A stretch of DNA of 51,949 nucleotides from Emcibacter sp. (lineage in GTDB: Bacteria; Pseudomonadota; Alphaproteobacteria; Sphingomonadales; Emcibacteraceae): NCBI GenBank assembly GCA_026982375.1, contig JALSHF010000176.1, forward strand, positions 1 through 51,949, read 5' to 3'. Numbering within the stretch: position 1 is the stretch's first letter; each line of letters begins with the position of its first letter. The translations under genes were made by a program, and so were the position numbers. The notes beneath the pieces were generated by a model that worked only from the letters and a program-made list of their open reading frames with translations, had not been told where the DNA came from and did no database searches. Below, piece after piece: positions 25,896 to 39,317 of the stretch.

Positions 25896-28049
25896 TTAAC
25901 CATAGAATTTTTCATCCTTGGCGGCTTTGTCACGCAGCATTTTGGGGACGGAAAATCCGGGCCCGTATTTCCGGGCAAGATTATCACATTCGGCGGCGAA
26001 TTTTTTCACACCGATGGTATCAACCATACTGAGCGGCCCACCGGTCCACGGGGCAAAACCCCAACCGAATATGGCGCCGATATCCGCGTCTTCGGGGGCC
26101 GTCAGCACGCCTTCTTCATAGCAGCGAATAACTTCGATGGCTTGGCGGTACAAGAGCCGGTTCGTGACTTCTTCTGCTGTGGGCTGGCTCTCTGCAAGCG
26201 GGAAATGCTCGCCAAGGCCGGGCCATAGATATTTGGTGCCGCCCTCGGGATATTCATACCAGCCATGGCCGTTTTTCTTACCCTTGCGGCCCAGTTCCAG
26301 ATACATTTTTTCAATCACCGCGTCGGCGGCCTGGGCCACATAGGCATCGCCCATGCCCTTTTTCGTGGCCTGTCCCACATGATAGCTCAGTTCGATACTG
26401 ACCTCGTCACCGACCGCGAATGGCCCGACGGCCATGCCGGAGAAGACACCGCAATTTTCGATGAGCGCAGGGGAGACACCTTCGGCCAGCATATTAACGG
26501 CCTCGGTAACATAGGTACCAAAACAGCGGCTGGTGTAAAAACCACGGCTGTCATTGACAACGATGGGGGTTTTTCTGATTTGGGCCACATAATCCAGCGC
26601 TTTGGCCAGAGCCAGATCGCCGGTTTTCTCGCCCATGATGATTTCCACGAGCGGCATTTTATCCACAGGCGAGAAGAAATGAATGCCGATAAACTGACCT
26701 TCATCGCGGGAAGCTTTGGCAAGACCCGTGATGGGCAGGGTCGAGGTGTTGGAGGCGTAAATACAGTCTGCCGCGACCACAGCTTCGACCTTTGCGGTCA
26801 CATCCGCCTTGACCTTGACGTCTTCCAAGACGGCTTCAATGATCAGGTCACAACCGGCAAGATCAGCATAATCAGTGGTGGGCGTGATCAACGACAGAAT
26901 GCCGTCGGCTTTCTCCTGAGCCATTTTTTTGCGTTTCACCCGTTTGGCAAGAAGACCTTCGGAATAGGCTTTGCCTTTTTCGGCATATTCCTGTTCCCGG
27001 TCGAGCAGAATAACCTCTATACCGGCCATGGCAGAAACAAAAGCAATGCCCGCCCCCATCATACCCGCGCCGAGCATACCCAGTTTTTTGGTTTTCATGG
27101 GCGGGATATCTTTTGGACGGCGAATGCCTTTTTCTGCGGCCTGTTTATTCACAAACAGCGTGCGGATCATATTGGGGGCGACGTCGCCTTTCAATAATGT
27201 GGCAAAATACTTGCTTTCAATTCTGATGGCGGTGTCCATGGGCAGTTGGTGGCCCTCATAAACGCAGGAGAGTATGGCCACGGCGGCGGGGTAATTGCCT
27301 TTGGTTTCTTTTTGAACCATGGCCTGCGCCCCCATGAAGGTTTGTGAAATGCCGGGGTTAAAGGCCCCCTGACCGCCCGGAACCTTGAAACGTTTTTCAT
27401 CCCACGGCTGAACGGCCTTGCCGCCGCCTGTGATCCATGCCTTGGCCTTGGCAATCACCTCCTCAACAGGGGCGATTTCATGCACAACATTGTTGGCCAA
27501 GGCGTTTTTCGGGTTCATATTTTTGCCTTGCAGCAGGAAGGGCAGGGCAGGCTGCACGCCCATCAGGCGCGGCAGGCGCTGCGTGCCGCCCGCGCCGGGC
27601 AGCAAGCCAACCATGACTTCGGGGAAGCCAAGATTGATTTTTGGGTTGTCGGCCACGACCCGATAATGACAGGCAAGACAGATTTCCAGCCCGCCGCCAA
27701 GGGCCAAACCATTAATGGCCGCCGCAAAAGGCTTGCCGCTGGTTTCCATGGCACGCAGGATGCCGTTCATCCGGTAAGCGCCGGCATAGATTTCCTCAGG
27801 CGGCTTGTCGGCAATATTGTCGGTCATGCCAAGCAGCATATCCAGATCCGCGCCGGCAACGAAAGAGCCTTTTTTACCAGAGGTAATCACGGCCCCTTTT
27901 ATATTGTCATCTTCGGCAATTTTTGTCACCAGACTTTCCAGCTCATCCAGCAATTGCGCCGAGATGATATTCATGGATTTGCCCGGAAGATCGATGGTCA
28001 ATAAGGCAATGCCATCCTGATCAAGCTCATATTTGATAATTTCAGTCAT
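25896..28049 (-). CDS. fadJ: Fused enoyl-CoA hydratase / 3-hydroxyacyl-CoA dehydrogenase
   Basis: The multifunctional beta-oxidation alpha subunit: it hydrates trans-2-enoyl-CoA and oxidises the 3-hydroxyacyl-CoA with NAD. Residues 1-190 are crotonase-like ([12 protein letters not shown] for the oxyanion hole, [41 protein letters not shown] with the two catalytic acids). From about 310 comes the Rossmann fold [19 protein letters not shown], then [15 protein letters not shown] with the catalytic His, and two C-terminal helical domains. 717 residues from ATG 28049; the ATG two codons upstream is too close to the AAGGA. Last gene of an operon with thiolase, acyl-CoA dehydrogenase and MerR, 14 bp after the thiolase. 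Confidence 0.94.
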
Positions 28050-28063
28050 TTTCATATTCCTTC

Positions 28064-29269
28064 TTATACGCGCTCAATGATGGTTGCTGTGGCCATGCCG
28101 CCGCCAACGCACAGGGAGGCAAGGGCGGTGGATTTATCAGACCGTTCCATTTCTTCAAGCGCGGTACCCAGTATGATGACACCGGTCGCGCCCAGGGGAT
28201 GGCCCATGGCGATAGAGCCGCCATTGACATTGACATAGGATTGATCCAGATCCAGTTCCTGAATGAAGCGCAGGGCGACGGCGGCAAAGGCTTCGTTGAT
28301 TTCCCAGACATCAATGTCTTTTGTGGTCATGCCGGCCCGCTTCAAAGCTTTTTTGGCCGAGCGTCCCGGCCCGTCCAGCATAACAACAGGCTCGGAACCG
28401 ATATCCGCAAAGCCGATGAATTTGGCGCGAGGTTTCAGGCCGAGTGTCTCGCCCATTTCCTTTGTGCCGATCAGAAATCCGGCGGCTCCGTCCACAATGC
28501 CGCTGGCATTTCCGGCGTGATGGATATGGGTGATTTTTTCCACATGGGGGTATCTTTTCAGCGCGATGCTGTCAAAACCGAGTTCGCCCAGATCGGCAAA
28601 GGATGGCTTTAATCCGGCGAGGGCTTCCATGGTGGCTTCGGGGCGCATATGTTCGTCATGGTCAAGTACGGTCATGCCCAGTTTATCTTTGATGGCCACA
28701 AGGGATTTATCAAAATGTCCTTTGTCCCACGCCGCCTTGGCCCGCTGCTGGCTTTGCACGGCAAAGGCATCACAATCTTCACGGCTGAAACCATAAAGAT
28801 TGCCCATCAGATCCGCGCCGATGCCTTGCGGGGCAAAGCCGATCTGATAGGAGGTTTGCGGGTCAACGGCCCATGCGCCGCCGTCCGAGCCCATGGGAAC
28901 CCGTGACATGGCCTCAGCGCCGCTGCCGATGATCAGGTCTGACTGGCCGGCCATGATGCGGGCAGCGGCATAATTGGTGGCCACAAGGCCCGATGAGCAG
29001 AAACGGTCAATCTGTACGCCCGGCACATGATGGCCATAGCCGGCCATAATACCCGCAAAACGCGGCATGACAGAGCCTTGTTCCGCAACCGGAGATACGG
29101 TGCCGGTGATAATATCGTCGACAAGTTCAGGATTGAAATCGCTACGATCTTTCAAGGCTTTAAGAATCTGTGTCAGGAGATCGATAGGCGTTACCTCATG
29201 AAGGCTGCCATTCTTTTTTCCGCGCCCGCGCGGCGTCTTTACATAATCATAAATATAAGCTTCAGTCAT
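28064..29269 (-). CDS. Acetyl-CoA C-acyltransferase (thiolase)
   Basis: A thiolase of 401 residues, the beta subunit of beta-oxidation, cleaving 3-ketoacyl-CoA. Motifs: nucleophile Cys in [57 protein letters not shown] with the active His, and the second Cys in [15 protein letters not shown]. Chain-length preference cannot be read off; the FadJ-like neighbour points to fatty-acid breakdown (FadA/FadI role). It lies 14 bp before the fadJ-like gene and 45 bp after the acyl-CoA dehydrogenase; that spacer has a duplicated 17-18 bp sequence. Confidence 0.93.
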
Positions 29270-29283
29270 TTTCTAATTCCTTT

Positions 29284-29318
29284 GAATTTTGGCCATTTAG
29301 GAATTTTTGGCCATTTAG
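29284..29318. repeat. Near-perfect 17/18-bp tandem repeat at a gene end
   Basis: GAATTTTGGCCATTTAG (29284-29300) is followed by the same sequence with one extra T (29301-29318). The second copy overlaps the stop of the acyl-CoA dehydrogenase gene. Confidence 0.85.
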
Positions 29319-31105
29319 AATGAGTGGGCATTGAGGCCCATAACGCTTGTCGCGCCGGCTTCTATTTTGGCTTTCAAGGCCGCGGTTTCCGGCAACATAT
29401 GACCATAGAAGAAGTCTGCGGTGATTAATTTATTTTCCAGAAATTCTTTGTCGCCTTCGCCTGCGGCAATCATGTCATGGGCCTTTTTGGCCATATCGGC
29501 CCAGAAATAGGCCATGGTCACAAGGGCCAGAAGATTTAAGTAATAATGGGCGCCGGCGCCGGCATTATTGGGGTTTGACATGCCATTTTGCATCAGCCAC
29601 ATACTGGCCGCCTGCAAACGGCCATTGGCTTTTTCCAACAGGGGGATATAATTGCTTAAGGCATCATTGGTTTTATTGTCATCAATGAAGGTCTGAACCA
29701 TCTCGAAATAGGCCCGGATCGCCGCGCCGCCATTGGCGGGCAGTTTGCGGCCAATCAAGTCCATGGCCTGTATGCCGTTGGTGCCTTCATATATGGGGGC
29801 GATGCGGCTATCGCGCAGGAATTGCTCCATGCCCCATTCGCGGATATATCCATGGCCGCCAAAACATTGCAAGGCGCGGCTGGCGGCTTCTACGCCCTGA
29901 TCGGTCAGATAGGATTTCAGAACAGGTGTGATCAGCGCCAAAAGCTCTTCGGCTTTTTCCCTTTCGGCTTCATCGGGATGTTCGCGGGTGGTATCGACCA
30001 ATATGCCGGCCCAGACCGCCATGGCCCGGCTGCCTTCGATAAAAGCGCGGTTGGTCATCAGCATACGGCGCACATCAGGATGAACCATGATCGGGTCGGC
30101 TTTAGCCTCCGGATTTTGCGGCCCGGTCAGGGCGCGGCCCTGAAGCCGGTCATTGGCATAGGCTGCGGCATTTTGCTGAGCGACCTCGGCAATGGCCAGT
30201 CCCTGAATGGCGACCCCGAGACGGGCCTCATTCATCATGGTGAACATGGCCTTCATGCCTTTATGCTTGTCGCCGAGCAGATAGCCTGTGGCTTCGTCAT
30301 AATTCATCACGCAGGTGGCATTGGAATGGATGCCCATTTTCTCTTCCAGAGAGCCGCAGGATACGCCGTTATTAGCGCCGACAGAACCATCGTCATTGAT
30401 GATGTTGCGCGGCACGATGAAAAGGCTGATGCCTTTGACGCCGTCTGGCCCGCCCGGAATTTTTGCCAGGACAAGATGGATGATATTTTCCGTCAGATCG
30501 TGATCGCCGGCAGAAATGAAAATCTTGGTGCCGGTGATTTTATAGCTGCCATCGTCTTGCGGCACGGCTTTTGTGGTCAATAGCCCCAAATCCGTCCCGC
30601 AATGTGGTTCGGTCAAATTCATGGTGCCGGCCCATTCCGCAGAATACATTTTGGGCAGATATTTTTCTTTTTGTTCGTCCGTGCCCCAGGCATAGATGGA
30701 TTCTGTTGCGCCTTTGGTCAGGCCGGGATACATGGCAAAGCCCCAATTGGCGGATACCATAATTTCGTTGAGCAATAATCCCAAAGTCTGCGGTAAGCCC
30801 TGCCCGCCGTATTTAACATCCCCGGTCATGCCCTGCCAGCCGCCTTCAACATATTGGGCATAGGCTTCCTTGAAGCCGTCCGGGGTGATGACCTTGCCAT
30901 TTTCCAGACGGCATCCCTGTCCGTCACCGGAAAGATTTAAGGGTTGAAAGACATTCTCGTTGATTTTTGCCGCTTCGTCCAGAATGGCGTCCAGAAGGTC
31001 GGGCGTTGCCTCTGCAAAGGCGGGGATATGGGTTTTCTCTTGCAGATCAAAATAATCATGCAGAAGAAATTTTATGTCTTTAACAGGGGCTGAATAAGTT
31101 GGCAT
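29315..31105 (-). CDS. Acyl-CoA dehydrogenase (long form)
   Basis: A 596-residue FAD acyl-CoA dehydrogenase that makes the trans-2 double bond in the first step of beta-oxidation. Segments: FLLHDYFDLQEKTHIPAF at the start, the FAD/substrate region MNLTEPHCGTDLGLL, KITGTKIFISAGDHDLT, CFGGHGYIREWGMEQFLRDSRI and the catalytic Glu in IYEGTNGIQAMDLIGRKL. About 130 further residues form the extra C-terminal domain usual in the approximately 600-residue bacterial class, which accepts medium to long chains. It is the first enzyme gene behind the MerR regulator (18 bp). Confidence 0.93.
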   Translation of the reverse strand: MPTYSAPVKDIKFLLHDYFDLQEKTHIPAFAEATPDLLDAILDEAAKINENVFQPLNLSGDGQGCRLENGKVITPDGFKEAYAQYVEGGWQGMTGDVKYGGQGLPQTLGLLLNEIMVSANWGFAMYPGLTKGATESIYAWGTDEQKEKYLPKMYSAEWAGTMNLTEPHCGTDLGLLTTKAVPQDDGSYKITGTKIFISAGDHDLTENIIHLVLAKIPGGPDGVKGISLFIVPRNIINDDGSVGANNGVSCGSLEEKMGIHSNATCVMNYDEATGYLLGDKHKGMKAMFTMMNEARLGVAIQGLAIAEVAQQNAAAYANDRLQGRALTGPQNPEAKADPIMVHPDVRRMLMTNRAFIEGSRAMAVWAGILVDTTREHPDEAEREKAEELLALITPVLKSYLTDQGVEAASRALQCFGGHGYIREWGMEQFLRDSRIAPIYEGTNGIQAMDLIGRKLPANGGAAIRAYFEMVQTFIDDNKTNDALSNYIPLLEKANGRLQAASMWLMQNGMSNPNNAGAGAHYYLNLLALVTMAYFWADMAKKAHDMIAAGEGDKEFLENKLITADFFYGHMLPETAALKAKIEAGATSVMGLNAHSF

Positions 31106-31123: not shown

Positions 31124-31522
31124 CTATAAACTGTTATCTGCTGGATAGTTTTCTGCCATAAAAATTGTCATTGTATCGACCAGACTGGACAATTCTTCCA
31201 GGGTTTCATCAATGTCTTTTTTTTGTTGTTCTAAATTTTTGATTCTATTTTTGCAGGCTGTGATGGTGACGCGGCATTGTTCTTCCTTGCCGCCCTCGCC
31301 GTAATGCATGTTGAGAACTTCACGAATATCCGTGATTGAAAAACCCACCCGTTTTCCGCGCAGGATCCAGATAAGGCGGGCGCGGTCACTGGTGGAATAA
31401 ATTCTGGCCTGTCCCTCGCGTTTTGGGGCGATGAGGGCTTCATCCTCATAATAGCGCAAGGTTCGGGGGGTGATGCCGAATTCTTCCGAGAGTTCTGAAA
31501 TGCTGTAGGTTCTTTTTGTCAT
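31124..31522 (-). CDS. MerR-family regulator, LiuR-like
   Basis: A 132-residue MerR regulator. The winged helix is YSISELSEEFGITPRTLRYYEDEALIAPKREGQARIYS, followed by ARLIWILRGKRVGFSITDIREVL and a C-terminal coiled coil (NRIKNLEQQKKDIDETLEEL). There is no Cys pair of metal-sensing MerR proteins, only one Cys (EEQCRV). MerR proteins of this type (LiuR-like) control branched-chain amino-acid and fatty-acid degradation in proteobacteria. It is first in the operon with the beta-oxidation genes and has a perfect 32-bp palindrome over its promoter, so autoregulation of the whole operon, released by an acyl-CoA, is likely. Confidence 0.9.
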   Translation of the reverse strand: MTKRTYSISELSEEFGITPRTLRYYEDEALIAPKREGQARIYSTSDRARLIWILRGKRVGFSITDIREVLNMHYGEGGKEEQCRVTITACKNRIKNLEQQKKDIDETLEELSSLVDTMTIFMAENYPADNSL

Positions 31523-31837
31523 TTTATTTCGTTTGGATAAGCCGTTAAAATTGGAAAGATGTTTTTAAAACTTATGTCACGCCGCAATAAATATAATAAT
31601 AGAATCGATGGGCCATCATAGTTGACCTTTACGTAAAGGTCAACTATGAATAAACAGTCGTTTTAAAAGGCCATTAATAACGCAAGTTTCCGCTGAATTA
31701 TTTCAGTCGAATTTTCTATATTGATGCTAAAAACAGTATCATTTTTGGGTTGTTTTGTATAGGATTGATTCAGGATACAAAGGTTGGGTCAGCTTGCTCG
31801 GGGCCTGTTATCAACATAAGATTGAAAAACTATAAAC
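31523..31837. other. 315-bp divergent spacer between merR and tauE-like genes
   Basis: Apart from the palindromic promoter at 31615-31650, no gene or motif was recognised. The part from 31650 to 31837 is unremarkable and should hold the promoter of the TauE-like gene. Confidence 0.6.
31617..31648 (-). promoter_or_regulatory. 32-bp perfect palindrome: MerR operator and promoter
   Basis: Left arm CATAGTTGACCTTTAC (31617-31632), right arm GTAAAGGTCAACTATG (31633-31648), no mismatch and no spacer. On the minus strand it contains TTGACC (31643-31638), a 17-bp gap and TATGAT (31620-31615), a good promoter for merR. Because the sequence is symmetric, TTGACC-17 bp-TATGAA is also present on the plus strand toward the TauE-like gene. 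The core TTTACGTAAA is of the kind bound by MerR/LiuR dimers between the -35 and -10 boxes. Confidence 0.8.
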
Positions 31838-32761
31838 ATGCAGATTTACCTGCCTATTGCTGAAATGTCGATTAACATCTTTTTGCTGTTGTTTATGGGC
31901 GGCGGTGTTGGCTTTTTATCGGGTATGTTTGGCGTTGGCGGCGGTTTTCTGATGACACCGCTGTTGATTTTTATTGGCGTGCCGCCCGCCGTCGCGGTGG
32001 CAACAGAGGCAAATCAAATCACCGCAGCATCGGTCTCCGGGGCTCTGGCTCATGGACGCCGGGGCGGCATTGATTACAAGATGGGCAGTGTCCTTATTGC
32101 CGGCGGGGCGGTTGGCTCGTATTTTGGGTCCATGTTATTTACCATATTAAAGGCAACGGGGCAGGTTGATTTGATGATTTCCCTGTCTTATGTGGTGTTT
32201 CTGGGGGGTATTGGCGGCATGATGTTCGTGGAAAGCGTGCGCAGCATTATGAGAACCCGGCGCGGTGACAAGCCCGTGGCGGGCCGGCGCTCTCGTACAT
32301 GGGTGGATGCCTTGCCTTTTAAAATGAGATTCAGGGCCTCTAAAATGTATATCAGCGCCATTCTTCCTCTGGCCATTGGCGGGCTTGTTGGGGTTCTGGC
32401 GGCGATTATGGGGGTCGGCGGCGGCTTTATCATGGTTCCGGCGATGATTTATCTGTTAAATATGCCGATCAATGTGGTCATTGGCACCTCGCTTTTTCAG
32501 ATTACCTTTGTGACAGCAAGTGTTACTTTCCTGCATTCTGTCAATACCCAGACCGTTGATGTTATGCTGGCCCTTATCCTGCTTACTGGCGCGGTTATCG
32601 GCGCGCAGATCGGCGCGCGGGTTGGCTTGAAATTAAAAGGTGAGCAGCTTAGAATTCTTCTGGCGATACTTGTGCTGGTGGTCTGCGGCAAAATGGCGGT
32701 GGATCTGGTGAGCGAGCCGGACGAGGTTTATTCTGTCACCCCGGTAGGGAGAAGCCATTGA
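31838..32761 (+). CDS. TauE/SafE (TSUP) family permease
   Basis: A 307-residue membrane protein of the TSUP family, which exports or imports sulfite, sulfoacetate, thiosulfate or related sulfur compounds. It has about eight hydrophobic segments in two halves, each opening with the family repeat: GGGVGFLSGMFGVGGGFLMTPLLIFIGVPPAVAVATEANQI and LVGVLAAIMGVGGGFIMVPAMIYLLNMPINVVIGTSLFQI. A basic loop (RTRRGDKPVAGRRSR) joins the halves. Its stop overlaps the start of the TIGR02186 gene, and CcdA follows, a grouping that hints at sulfur or thiol handling. Substrate unknown. Confidence 0.9.
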   Translation: MQIYLPIAEMSINIFLLLFMGGGVGFLSGMFGVGGGFLMTPLLIFIGVPPAVAVATEANQITAASVSGALAHGRRGGIDYKMGSVLIAGGAVGSYFGSMLFTILKATGQVDLMISLSYVVFLGGIGGMMFVESVRSIMRTRRGDKPVAGRRSRTWVDALPFKMRFRASKMYISAILPLAIGGLVGVLAAIMGVGGGFIMVPAMIYLLNMPINVVIGTSLFQITFVTASVTFLHSVNTQTVDVMLALILLTGAVIGAQIGARVGLKLKGEQLRILLAILVLVVCGKMAVDLVSEPDEVYSVTPVGRSH

Positions 32762-34994: not shown

Positions 34995-35657
34995 TTAAAT
35001 GACGAGGGCAGCGATTTCCTCGGTCTGATCATGCCGTTTAATGGCCCTTAAGGGAATGTTCGGGATGATCTTTGTGAAGTCCTGAAGGACGCCTTCAATG
35101 TTTATATAGCTTTGCGGTGATTCGGAAATAATTAACCCCGCCACATCTATACCGCGTTGATTGAGGCAAGAGAGGGCTGTTAAACTATGGCTGATTGTGC
35201 CAAGGGCGGAGCCTGCCACCAGCAGGCATTGGCAGCCGAGGCGTGCCATAAGATCCAGCGTCGTATGCTGATAATTCAGCGGAACCATAATGCCGCCCGC
35301 CCCTTCGATCAGCAGAAAATCAAGGTCATTCTTGATATGTTTCTGGCAAAAAAGCGCGACCTCTTCAAAGTTGATTGTTTCGCCTATTTTCTGGGCGGCG
35401 ATATGGGGGGGGAGCGGCGGCGCATAACGCCAGGGCGAAATCATGCGGGCATTATCCAATGTGGGCGTCATGTCCATGGCCCTAAGCAACAGGCCGGTAT
35501 CGGTCTGATCAATGGCATCGTCGTCAAAGCCGCTGATGACGGGTTTGATGGCGCGCGCTTTGTGGCCCAGTTTTCGCAACTGGCGCAATAGCAGGCAGGT
35601 CACATAGGTCTTGCCGATATCTGTGCCTGTCGCGCCAATGAAAATGACTTTTGTCAT
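34995..35657 (-). CDS. bioD: Dethiobiotin synthetase
   Basis: BioD closes the ureido ring of biotin from DAPA, CO2 and ATP. The 220-residue protein has the P-loop FIGATGTDIGKTYVTCLLL, KPVISGFDDDAIDQTDT, the segment LLIEGAGGIMVPLN typical of BioD, and the base-contact region near the end. It overlaps the bioF stop by 4 bp, so both come from one mRNA. Conserved P-loop Thr and Lys are present. Confidence 0.95.
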   Translation of the reverse strand: MTKVIFIGATGTDIGKTYVTCLLLRQLRKLGHKARAIKPVISGFDDDAIDQTDTGLLLRAMDMTPTLDNARMISPWRYAPPLPPHIAAQKIGETINFEEVALFCQKHIKNDLDFLLIEGAGGIMVPLNYQHTTLDLMARLGCQCLLVAGSALGTISHSLTALSCLNQRGIDVAGLIISESPQSYINIEGVLQDFTKIIPNIPLRAIKRHDQTEEIAALVI

Positions 35658-36823
35658 GCTGTATTTCCTGCCGTTAAGATATCATGCTTTTTAAGGGATG
35701 CAACCAATGCGAGAATTTGCTTTTGGGTGTGACGGGCAGAAAAGGTAAAGCGCAGCCTGCCCGTACCCTCGGCAACGGTCGGCGGGCGAATGCCGGTAAC
35801 CAGAAAGCCATCTTCTTCAAGTGCGGCGGCGAAGGCCATGGTTTGGGCCGTATCACCGATGATAACAGGCACAATAGGGCTTTGCGCGTCCGGCAGGCCA
35901 AGGGTTCTGGTGAAGAATAATGCATTGTCCATGGGCCGGCGGCAATAACCGGGGTCGCTGTCAATGATATCCAGCGCTGCCAGCGCCGCCGCCGCATTGG
36001 CCGGCGGTAAAGCGGTGGTATAAATCAGGCTCCTTGCCCGGGTTTTTATCAGGTCTATAACCGGCTTGCTGGCACAAAGATAGCCGCCAAAGCTGCCGAT
36101 GGCTTTGGATAATGTGCCCATTTGCAGGGCAATATCGGGCAAGGGGTCAAAAATATACCGGCTGCCCCTGCCGCCGCCGATGACGCCCAGGCCATGGGCA
36201 TCATCACTCATCAGCCAGCCGTCATATTCTTTGGCCAAACAGCCTAGCCTGTCCAATGGGGCGATGTCACCGTCCATGCTGAAAACGCCGTCGGTGAGAA
36301 TAAGGGCTTTCTGATAATCCGGCCGATGCTGTTCCATAAGCTCTTGCAGATGGGCCATATCGTTATGACGGAAAAATATCATATGGGCGCCGGACATTTC
36401 GCTGCCGGCCCGCAGGCAGGCATGACTAAGTTCATCAATGAAGATTATATCCTGTTCATTGGCGAGGGCGGGAATGATGCCGATGTTGGCCATATATCCC
36501 GCGGTGAATATACAGGCATCTTCGCTGCCTTTTATCTGAGCCAGCCGCTGTTCCAGCTGGCTGATGAGCGGGTGATTTCCGGTAATAAGCCGCGATGCCC
36601 CTGCGCCCGTACCATATTGCTTGATGGCCTGTTTGGCCGCGTGCTTGATCTTTGGATGATGGTTGAAATTCAGATAGTCATTGCAGCAGAATGAAATTAA
36701 TTCACGTCCTTTACGCAGGATGCCGCCGTCCTTGCTACGGTCTGTATCCAGAATTTTCCGCTGCAATCCTTTATCAGCAAGGGCGGCGAGTTTTTTTTGT
36801 GCAAAGGCATCAAGAGATTTCAT
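35654..36823 (-). CDS. bioF: 8-amino-7-oxononanoate synthase
   Basis: BioF is the PLP enzyme that condenses pimeloyl-ACP (or -CoA) with alanine. Motifs in the 389-residue protein: ISFCCNDYLNFNHHPKIKHAAKQAIKQYGTGAGASRLITGNH, ILTDGVFSMDGDIAPLD, LMSDDAHGLGVIG, and the PLP lysine in MGTLSKAIGSFGGYLC. Full length. It starts 170 bp from bioB, which is transcribed away from it; the pair bioFD and bioBA form the divergent biotin cluster. Confidence 0.95.
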   Translation of the reverse strand: MKSLDAFAQKKLAALADKGLQRKILDTDRSKDGGILRKGRELISFCCNDYLNFNHHPKIKHAAKQAIKQYGTGAGASRLITGNHPLISQLEQRLAQIKGSEDACIFTAGYMANIGIIPALANEQDIIFIDELSHACLRAGSEMSGAHMIFFRHNDMAHLQELMEQHRPDYQKALILTDGVFSMDGDIAPLDRLGCLAKEYDGWLMSDDAHGLGVIGGGRGSRYIFDPLPDIALQMGTLSKAIGSFGGYLCASKPVIDLIKTRARSLIYTTALPPANAAAALAALDIIDSDPGYCRRPMDNALFFTRTLGLPDAQSPIVPVIIGDTAQTMAFAAALEEDGFLVTGIRPPTVAEGTGRLRFTFSARHTQKQILALVASLKKHDILTAGNTA

Positions 36824-36831
36824 ATGGCTAA

Positions 36832-36871
36832 CCTGAAAAAAAATTCCCTGAAAAAATTCCCTGAAAAAAAT
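36832..36871. repeat. Three tandem copies of a 13-14-bp unit upstream of bioF
   Basis: CCTGAAAAAAAATT (36832-36845), CCCTGAAAAAATT (36846-36858) and CCCTGAAAAAAAT (36859-36871) lie directly before the bioF start. The A tracts may bend DNA and, read on the minus strand, occupy the ribosome-binding region of bioF (AGGG appears in each unit), so copy number could affect bioF expression. Confidence 0.8.
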
Positions 36872-36993
36872 CTATGAGCTTTGCCTTATGATATCGTGAT
36901 GGTTCTGTCAATCAAAGAGCAAAAAACTTGACTCTTCGGTAACCTTCGGGGAAAGTGTGCAAAATAAGCTGAATACTGATAAATGGAGTGACG

Positions 36994-38016
36994 ATGTCCC
37001 TGCCCGATGCACAGCAAGAGAATTCTGTTTCCATAATGGAAAGCCCCAATACCCAAGCCATCTGGCCAGACGGCTTTCGCCATAATTGGACCCGAAGGGA
37101 AATATTGGCCTATTTCGATTTGCCGATGATGGATCTGTTGTTTCAGGCGCAGACCATGCACCGTAAATATTTCGATCCCAATAAAGTTCAGCTCTCTCAA
37201 TTATGCAGTATCAAGACCGGAGGCTGCCCCGAAGATTGTAAATATTGCCCGCAATCCGCCCGCTATCAAACCAGTGTGGATGCCGAGCGATTGATGGCCG
37301 TCGAAAAAGTTCTGGAAGGCGCGCGCAATGCCAAGGCCAACGGGGCGACCCGCTATTGCATGGGGGCGGCATGGCGCAGCCCGAAGGACCGGGATATGGA
37401 TGCGGTCTGCGATATGATCAAGGGGGTTAAGGCGCTGGGCCTTGAATCCTGCATGACGCTTGGCATGCTGGACGGGGATCAGGCGGCGCAGCTAAAACAA
37501 GCCGGGCTTGATTATTATAACCATAATGTGGACAGCTCACCGGAATATTATAAAGAGATTATCACAACCCGCACCTATGAAGACCGTCTGGATACCTTGG
37601 AAAATGTTCGTTCTGCGGGGATTAATGTCTGCAGCGGCGGTATCGTCGGCATGGGCGAAAGCCGGGAAGATCGGGCCGGCATGCTGCAGACCTTGGCAAA
37701 TCTGCCGCAGCATCCGGGAAGTGTGCCGATCAATATGCTGGTGCAGGTGGAAGGCACGCCGCTTTTTGGCGAGGGTCAGATGGATCCGTTTGATTTTATC
37801 CGCACCATTGCGGCGGCGCGGCTTATTATGCCGGCATCCTATGTGCGCTTGTCTGCGGGCAGGGAGGCCATGAATGATGAAATGCAGGCCTTATGTTTTA
37901 TGGCCGGTGCCAATAGCATCTTTTACGGCGAGAAGCTTTTAACAACCCCCAACCCAATTCAAAATACGGATCTGGCATTATTTTCCCGTCTTGGTATTTC
38001 GCCTGAAGGCCAATGA
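36994..38016 (+). CDS. bioB: Biotin synthase
   Basis: BioB is the radical-SAM enzyme that inserts sulfur into dethiobiotin. The 4Fe-4S motif Cys-x3-Cys-x2-Cys is in [18 protein letters not shown]. Other BioB segments: [52 protein letters not shown] and [10 protein letters not shown] with the Arg that contacts the 2Fe-2S cluster. 340 residues from ATG 36994, which has GGAG 6 bp before it; a GTG two codons upstream lies inside that signal. The stop overlaps the bioA ATG by 4 bp. Confidence 0.96.
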
Positions 38017-39317
38017 TGAAGAAAGATCTGCCCGATTGGTTCGTCGAGGGATATGGCAATGTCTGGTTGCCCTATACCCAGATGCAAACGGCGGATGATG
38101 CCCTGCCGGTTGTCGCGGCGGACGGCGTTACCCTTGAGCTTGCCGATGGCCGCAAGTTAATTGATGGTATTGCCTCCTGGTGGACAGCCTGCCATGGTTA
38201 TAATAATCCGCAGATGCAGGAAAAGATGATCGCTCAGGTCAGGAATATGTCCCATGTGATGCTGGGCGGTTTGGTTCATGAGGGGGCGGCGACTCTGGCC
38301 CGGCGGCTGGCGGAGTTATTGCCCGGTGATTTAAATCATGTATTTTTTTCCGAGAGTGGCTCTGTATCCGTCGAAGTTGCCTTGAAGATGGCCGTGCAAT
38401 ATTGGACCAATTTGGGCGAGCAGGGCCATAATCGCTTTGTCTGTTTTCAGTCCGGCTATCACGGCGACACCACAGCCGCCATGTCGGTTGGGGATAATGC
38501 CAGCAGTGGTTCTGGTGATGATTCTGGCGGAATGCATAAGGCCTTCAGCGGGTTTTTGCAGCAGCAATTTATGCGCCCATTCCCAAAAAACAGCGCGGAA
38601 ATGAAAGAATTCAGCGATTTCTTAAAGGAAAACAAAGGGGAAATCGCCGGCGTGATTATGGAGCCATTGGTTCAGGGGGCCGGTGGTATGAAATTCCATG
38701 GCGCGGATATTCTGGCCTCGATTTCAGCCGCTTGCGCAGAAAATGATATTCTGTTGATTCTGGATGAGATATTCACCGGTTTTGGCCGGACAGGCACCAT
38801 GTTTGCCTGCGAGCAGGCGGGCATCACGCCGGATATCATCTGCCTGGGCAAAGCCCTGACCGCCGGCACGGTGGCCATGGCCGCCACGGTGGCAACGGAC
38901 AGGGTTTACGGCGCGTTTCTGTCGGATGACCCTGCCAAGGCCTTCATGCATGGCCCCACCTATATGGCCAATCCTCTGGCCTGCGCCGCCGCCAATGCGT
39001 CGCTGGATATTTTCCGTGACGAGCCTGTTCTGGATCAAGTGAAGCGTATCGAGGGTCATCTTAGCCAGTCTCTTGAACAGTTTCGCGGCCATCCTGATGT
39101 GGTTGATGTGCGGGTCAAGGGGGCTATTGGGGTCATTCAGATGAAAAAGATCAGCGACCCCGCCAAATTGCGCGCTAAATTTGTCGATGAGGGGGTCTGG
39201 ATACGCCCGTTTGGTGATGTTATTTACCTGACACCTTCTTTTTCCATGGCAAGTCATGAGCTTGCAGCATTGACACAGGCCATCGATAAAGTGCTTAATA
39301 ACAATGTTTTAAAATGA
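38013..39317 (+). CDS. bioA: Adenosylmethionine-8-amino-7-oxononanoate aminotransferase
   Basis: BioA transaminates KAPA to DAPA with SAM as amino donor. The 434-residue class III aminotransferase has [30 protein letters not shown], the BioA-typical WWT and [17 protein letters not shown], the PLP Asp in [15 protein letters not shown] and the PLP lysine in [10 protein letters not shown], then [18 protein letters not shown]. Translationally coupled to bioB. The 3' end carries a near-duplicate 15-bp sequence over the stop codon. No bioC, bioH or bioZ is present, so pimeloyl synthesis must be encoded elsewhere. Confidence 0.95.

Follow-up and report, generated by a model that had tools for sequence, protein, structure and literature searches.

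A 34-bp perfect palindrome as the probable autoregulatory operator of a LiuR-type MerR regulator heading a beta-oxidation operon in Emcibacter sp.

A perfect palindrome upstream of a merR gene in Emcibacter sp. is probably the operator at which a MerR repressor of the LiuR type would regulate its own operon, merR-fadE-thiolase-fadJ, until released by a ligand of the acyl-CoA type. We infer binding, repression and the ligand from what was observed of the sequence, its conservation with merR and fadE, the promoter geometry, the LiuR box of liu operons and the predicted fold. A striking palindrome is thereby tied to a well-populated regulator family, with operator and promoter geometry read from 106 loci, and it illustrates well a switch type that is already known. 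The window is the whole stretch of DNA analysed (51,949 nucleotides), in which the operator and the genes behind it lie as follows.

31616-31649, no strand: 34-bp perfect palindrome TCATAGTTGACCTTTACGTAAAGGTCAACTATGA (sequence, palindrome scan)
31622-31643, no strand: conserved 22-bp operator core TTGACCTTTACGTAAAGGTCAA, formed by two overlapping 16-bp LiuR-type boxes at 31622-31637 and 31628-31643 (orthologous loci)
31124-31522, minus strand: merR, a LiuR-type MerR regulator of 132 aa that consists of a winged helix-turn-helix (HTH) and a single long helix for dimerisation and lacks a sensor domain (profiles, tree, predicted structure)
29315-31105, minus strand: acyl-CoA dehydrogenase, FadE-type (profiles; downstream of merR at 104 of the 106 loci)
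28064-29269, minus strand: acetyl-CoA acyltransferase (thiolase; NF006090 above cut-off)
25896-28055, minus strand: FadJ-like enoyl-CoA hydratase/3-hydroxyacyl-CoA dehydrogenase (profiles)

The original prediction placed a 32-bp perfect palindrome at 31617-31648; its symmetry is as perfect as claimed, and the true span is 34 bp, one base more on each side, ending 93 bp upstream of merR. The runner-up among perfect even palindromes of the 51.9-kb window measures 14 bp. Thirty windows simulated under a first-order Markov model had longest palindromes of 14-20 bp, with 28 bp in one, and the expected number of runs of at least 16 pairs is about 1e-5 in a window and 6e-4 in a genome.

Orthologues of MerR were gathered from relatives and from 80 named genome contigs, mostly of Sphingomonadales with Emcibacter MAGs nearest, and gave 106 distinct loci once three duplicates and one paralogue had been dropped; the next best paralogues in relatives scored E 1e-12 or weaker. 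The box TTKACSTNNACGTMAA, allowed up to two mismatches within 300 bp upstream of merR, occurs in all 106 loci and the reversed pattern used as control in none, while FadE is encoded downstream of merR in 104. Class-wide, the box was found at up to three mismatches in 25 of 28 additional loci, mostly before beta-oxidation or leucine genes. These counts support the proposal that the palindrome would act as an operator of MerR type for the merR-beta-oxidation operon beside it. Perfect symmetry over 32-34 bp is not itself a conserved trait: the core is 22 bp long, and many relatives retain just one 16-bp box.

A refinement of this reading, to which we give somewhat less than an even chance, treats the operator as two overlapping 16-bp boxes (TTKACGTNNACGTMAA, offset by 6 bp) for two dimers and not as a 22-bp site for one. 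By a loose count, the left box stands alone in 48 of the 106 loci, the right box alone in 13 and both are present in 41; moreover, the site at the Vibrio liu locus is a single 16-bp palindrome (TTTACGTTAACGTAAA). Against separate boxes, symmetry that runs past the core does so around the middle of the 22 bp in every case but one, whose axis is the left 16-bp centre, and the changes C5 and G16 of the window genus, whose arms read TTGACC...GGTCAA as against the common TTGACG...CGTCAA, are symmetric around the 22-bp centre. Such symmetry is also compatible with two symmetric dimers and so does not decide between one and two. In our reading the functional axis is the central ACGT, about which one dimer, or two placed symmetrically, may bind. 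A symmetric half-site switch was seen in the operator upstream of merR at locus L163 (CATTCCCTTTACGTAAAGGGAATG), where the outer half-sites are TTCCC in place of TTGAC and the core is unchanged.

Extension of symmetry past the conserved core recurs, unexpectedly, in several lineages that are unrelated to one another and whose extensions share no sequence. At least six extra symmetric pairs about the 22-bp centre were found in 6 of 137 loci, whereas shuffling of arms among loci predicts 0.17, an excess that is indicative only, as the shuffle ignores relatedness and two of the loci (L003 and L005) are close relatives; the other cases belong to unrelated families. The extended arms differ by lineage (TCATAG, TCTTAG, AGAATTCTAG, GCGATAC). 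Symmetry beyond the core with lineage-specific arms, upstream of merR or liuR, was noted at L172, L030, L120, L160, L170 and L145; the operator of L172 is perfectly symmetric over 36 bp (GCGATACCTTACGTTTACGTAAACGTAAGGTATCGC) and that of Rubrobacter radiotolerans (L145) over 32 bp. We rejected the idea that symmetric arms are a trait of divergent promoters, since L170 and L172 have extended arms although the gene upstream of each points the same way. The window has A.T as its fourth outer pair and its two nearest relatives have T.A, a difference on both sides at once.

Because of the symmetry excess, the unrelated arm sequences between lineages and the lack of a tie to a divergent gene, we tentatively suggest, from sequence comparison, that the outer arms are not recognised as sequence and recur through template switching at a replication hairpin, one arm being copied onto the other. 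Operators would then drift towards over-long palindromes, and the mirror promoter facing TauE would be incidental. The paired change at the fourth outer pair is what template switching predicts. Selection for symmetry may account for the extended arms instead, and this repeated over-extension constitutes a small puzzle.

The genes merR, fadE, thiolase and fadJ very likely form one operon, since the gaps between them are only 18, 45 and 8 nt. The MerR protein scores above cut-off with the HTH profiles PF13411, PF00376 and PF09278, in agreement with an N-terminal winged HTH, and its predicted structure (mean pLDDT 90) has a dimerisation helix at residues 78-125 with pLDDT 88-98 across most of its length. 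No ligand-binding domain is visible in the model, whose best Foldseek match is the sensor-less HiNmlR. Assignment to the metal-sensing members MerR, ZntR, CueR or CadR was rejected on NCBIfam equivalog scores far below cut-off, the best being ZntR with 63 of 143 bits.

LiuR is a MerR-family repressor (PMC3223726), and the LiuR regulon ('ILV box') covers branched-chain amino-acid degradation in Proteobacteria (PMC3223726, PMC5343134, PMC7238569). The window MerR is approximately 43-52% identical to liu-linked proteins of Vibrio and Aeromonas, has a box of the same type (TTTACGTTAACGTAAA/TTGACGTTTACGTAAA) upstream of its own gene and, like LiuR, would regulate its own expression from first place in an operon for CoA-ester oxidation. 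In a tree of 61 proteins, whose root is uncertain, liu-linked and fatty-acid-linked proteins cluster together and apart from the paralogue L032, which places the window MerR among LiuR-type proteins. Fatty-acid-linked and leucine-linked members are split with support 94/90 in the same uncertainly rooted tree, and the window MerR falls within the fatty-acid-linked clade (53 rows, support 94/90). Both this clade and the linkage to FadE in 104 of 106 loci assign it to the fatty-acid branch of the LiuR-type group. It differs from LiuR in the strict sense, a regulator of liu/ivd genes, in that it heads a fatty-acid beta-oxidation operon and belongs to a separate supported clade, and the genome's own liu operon has no box at up to three mismatches.

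Leucine degradation is the setting of the Vibrio homologue, a LiuR-type gene with a box, placed ahead of genes that encode isovaleryl-CoA dehydrogenase, methylcrotonyl-CoA carboxylase (MCC), methylglutaconyl-CoA hydratase and HMG-CoA lyase, names that were read off the products of an unannotated record; the layout is the arrangement known for LiuR. Homologues in Azospirillum and Martelella head thiolase-fadJ-fadE operons, adjoined in Martelella by fadD, thioesterase and etf genes. LiuR orthologues reportedly regulate fatty-acid degradation in alphaproteobacteria (Kazakov et al. 2009, J. Bacteriol. 191:52-64). The window locus, which shares bacterial class, pathway and regulator family with these, appears to be one of them; it differs in the TTGACC...GGTCAA arms of its genus and in having a single site. 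On pSymB of Sinorhizobium meliloti (L142), a LiuR-type MerR gene has no CoA-ester oxidation neighbour and overlapping boxes (TTGACTTTTACGTCAAAGTCAA) lie upstream of it. On plasmid 1 of the actinobacterium R. radiotolerans (L145), the same operator accompanies a LiuR-type MerR whose neighbour is an isovaleryl-CoA dehydrogenase, which suggests transfer across phyla.

Promoter elements lie within the palindrome on both strands, and the divergent neighbour, a permease gene, has an element of its own.

31615-31643, minus strand: promoter of merR-fadE-thiolase-fadJ, with -35 TTGACC at 31643-31638, a 17-bp spacer and -10 TATGAT at 31620-31615 (consensus scan; geometry conserved in orthologues)
31622-31650, plus strand: weak divergent promoter candidate towards TauE, with TTGACC at 31622-31627, 17 bp and TATGAA at 31645-31650, not conserved (sequence, orthologue comparison)
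31731-31766, plus strand: bipartite promoter-like element of TauE, AACAGTATCATT...TTTTGTATAGGATT, apart from the palindrome (fixed spacing in most of the 17 family loci)
31838-32761, plus strand: TauE/SafE-family permease, the divergent neighbour, probably not a target (profile match, neighbourhood)

In the merR direction the geometry TTGACS, 17-bp spacer and TA.... is kept in essentially all of the 106 loci. Per-base conservation is at least 96% across TTGAC and 93% for the TA of the -10, which begins with TA in 100% of same-family loci and 91% elsewhere and has T at its sixth position in 17 of 17 family members. Together the two hexamers match the consensus at 10 of 12 positions, and the box occupies the spacer of this standard-length promoter, overlapping the -35. 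Just past the expected merR start, at 31598-31610, a short motif (ATCGATTCT in the merR direction) is kept in most family members and is possibly a leader or the site of a second regulator.

Two face-to-face promoters had been predicted within the palindrome; both hexamer pairs lie where claimed with 17-bp gaps, and their orientation is outward, the promoters being overlapping and divergent. Both might work, one bound MerR repressing its own operon and TauE alike, an explanation that we consider unlikely. Besides the two 17-bp spacers, it is favoured by the presence of TauE as divergent neighbour in all 17 family loci and by T-rich sequence where the mirror -10 lies (TAAAAA as read towards TauE), which is conserved in the family and gives two-way control some residual probability, although the merR promoter could equally be using this stretch as an AT-rich upstream element. 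The plus-strand pair itself was too weak to be reached by the consensus promoter scan. Its -10 begins with TA at 53% of the loci in the family and at 10% of the others, and combines A2 with T6 at 18% and 6%, respectively, and most Sphingomonads retain the box with no TauE gene adjoining. TauE moreover has its own conserved element in most family members, closer to its start and ending about 72 nt from the ATG. An unconserved mirror -10 together with this separate element leaves two-way control unsupported, and the suggestion that the palindrome might govern the permease is not borne out. The bipartite element is unlike the usual sigma-70 -35 type. Beside the permease, rightward on the plus strand, lies the gene of a TIGR02186 protein.

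For the merR operon, the repressor model would operate as follows. MerR, as one dimer or two symmetric ones, would bind the 22-bp core between -35 and -10, overlapping the -35, and RNA polymerase would thereby be excluded or held inactive. A ligand from fatty-acid breakdown, most likely an acyl-CoA, would release MerR, after which the operon would be transcribed from an ordinary promoter with a 17-bp spacer. Repression is favoured over activation by untwisting, since the spacer that the box occupies already has the optimal length. At the mer promoter a spacer of 17 bp is optimal and makes transcription constitutive (PMC11049809), so untwisting would bring a 17-bp promoter no benefit, and repression relieved by a ligand derived from fatty acids is the likeliest mode. 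The earlier suggestion that a 17-bp gap points to simple repression accordingly gains from the conservation of this spacer across the 106 loci, which it would fit better than untwisting.

Some observations count against this model. In the mer system, MerR hardly affected promoters with spacers of 16-18 bp (PMC11049809), so that repression at 17 bp is not automatic. With no ligand-binding domain visible, the protein also offers no evident place for an acyl-CoA. A LiuR candidate of Rhodospirillum rubrum increases when butyrate is used, which fits release from autorepression; activation would fit too.

That the protein is instead a classical MerR activator, whose ligand-bound form untwists the spacer and activates the operon like CueR or MerR, seems improbable. 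Its MerR fold and an operator lying between -35 and -10 and including part of the -35, as at classical MerR promoters, speak for it. Classical activated promoters, however, have 19 bp (PMC11049809), or 19-20 bp as the activator type is delimited here, against the 17 bp found here and in essentially all orthologous loci, and the -35 and -10 are already good at 10 of 12 consensus matches. This branch of MerR proteins thus conserves a spacer of 17 bp, which makes the choice between repressor and activator directly testable.

Among characterized proteins, HiNmlR (PDB 5d90, 5d8c, 5e01) is likewise a sensor-less MerR and has been crystallised on promoter DNA, palindromic in one entry; it differs in its regulon and is 22-26% identical. 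CvkR, the MerR-type repressor of CAST systems, also represses, and one of its targets has a 17-nt spacer, but its site overlaps the start and the -10, its 15-nt motif is AnnACATnATGTnnT and its biology is unrelated (PMC9938897). SoxR at the bidirectional PsoxS/soxR promoter is a further parallel, as a MerR-family member acts there on a symmetric region whose two directions of transcription could compete (PMC12825309); it differs in that SoxR activates one way and represses the other over a shared -10, and the second direction of the palindrome is not conserved.

A terminator, an RNA hairpin, a mobile-element relic or chance might be invoked for so long, perfect and intergenic an inverted repeat, but each is highly improbable, as chance is excluded by the simulations and expectations above and the palindrome is single-copy, has neither loop nor T-run, is conserved alongside merR and not alongside a transcript end, precedes the point where merR transcription is expected to start, and drew no match in the consensus terminator scan.

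Returning to the proposed operator, its core occurs once in the genome, although a further site could be missed in an assembly that is 97% complete. A genome search for more copies of the palindrome, the check proposed with the original prediction, found none elsewhere, and looser matches did not exceed the control: 53 + 60 matches at up to two mismatches against 67 + 64 for the reversed pattern, hence no enrichment indicative of a wider regulon. The four best other matches were rejected as regulon sites, lying inside long reading frames. Like the leucine-degradation operon (contig C163), the genome's own etfBA and fadE2-fadD operons have no box at up to three mismatches. From the sequence, the regulator appears to be local here, with a single site. 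Relatives within the order have additional boxes before etfBA (L128, L131) and before MBL-SDR-fadD operons (L127, L129); since the copies of etfBA and fadD in the present genome have none, the regulon seems to have shrunk here. Elsewhere in the window, at 34995-39317, frames resembling BioD, BioF, BioB and BioA are apparent biotin synthesis genes, as judged by sequence.
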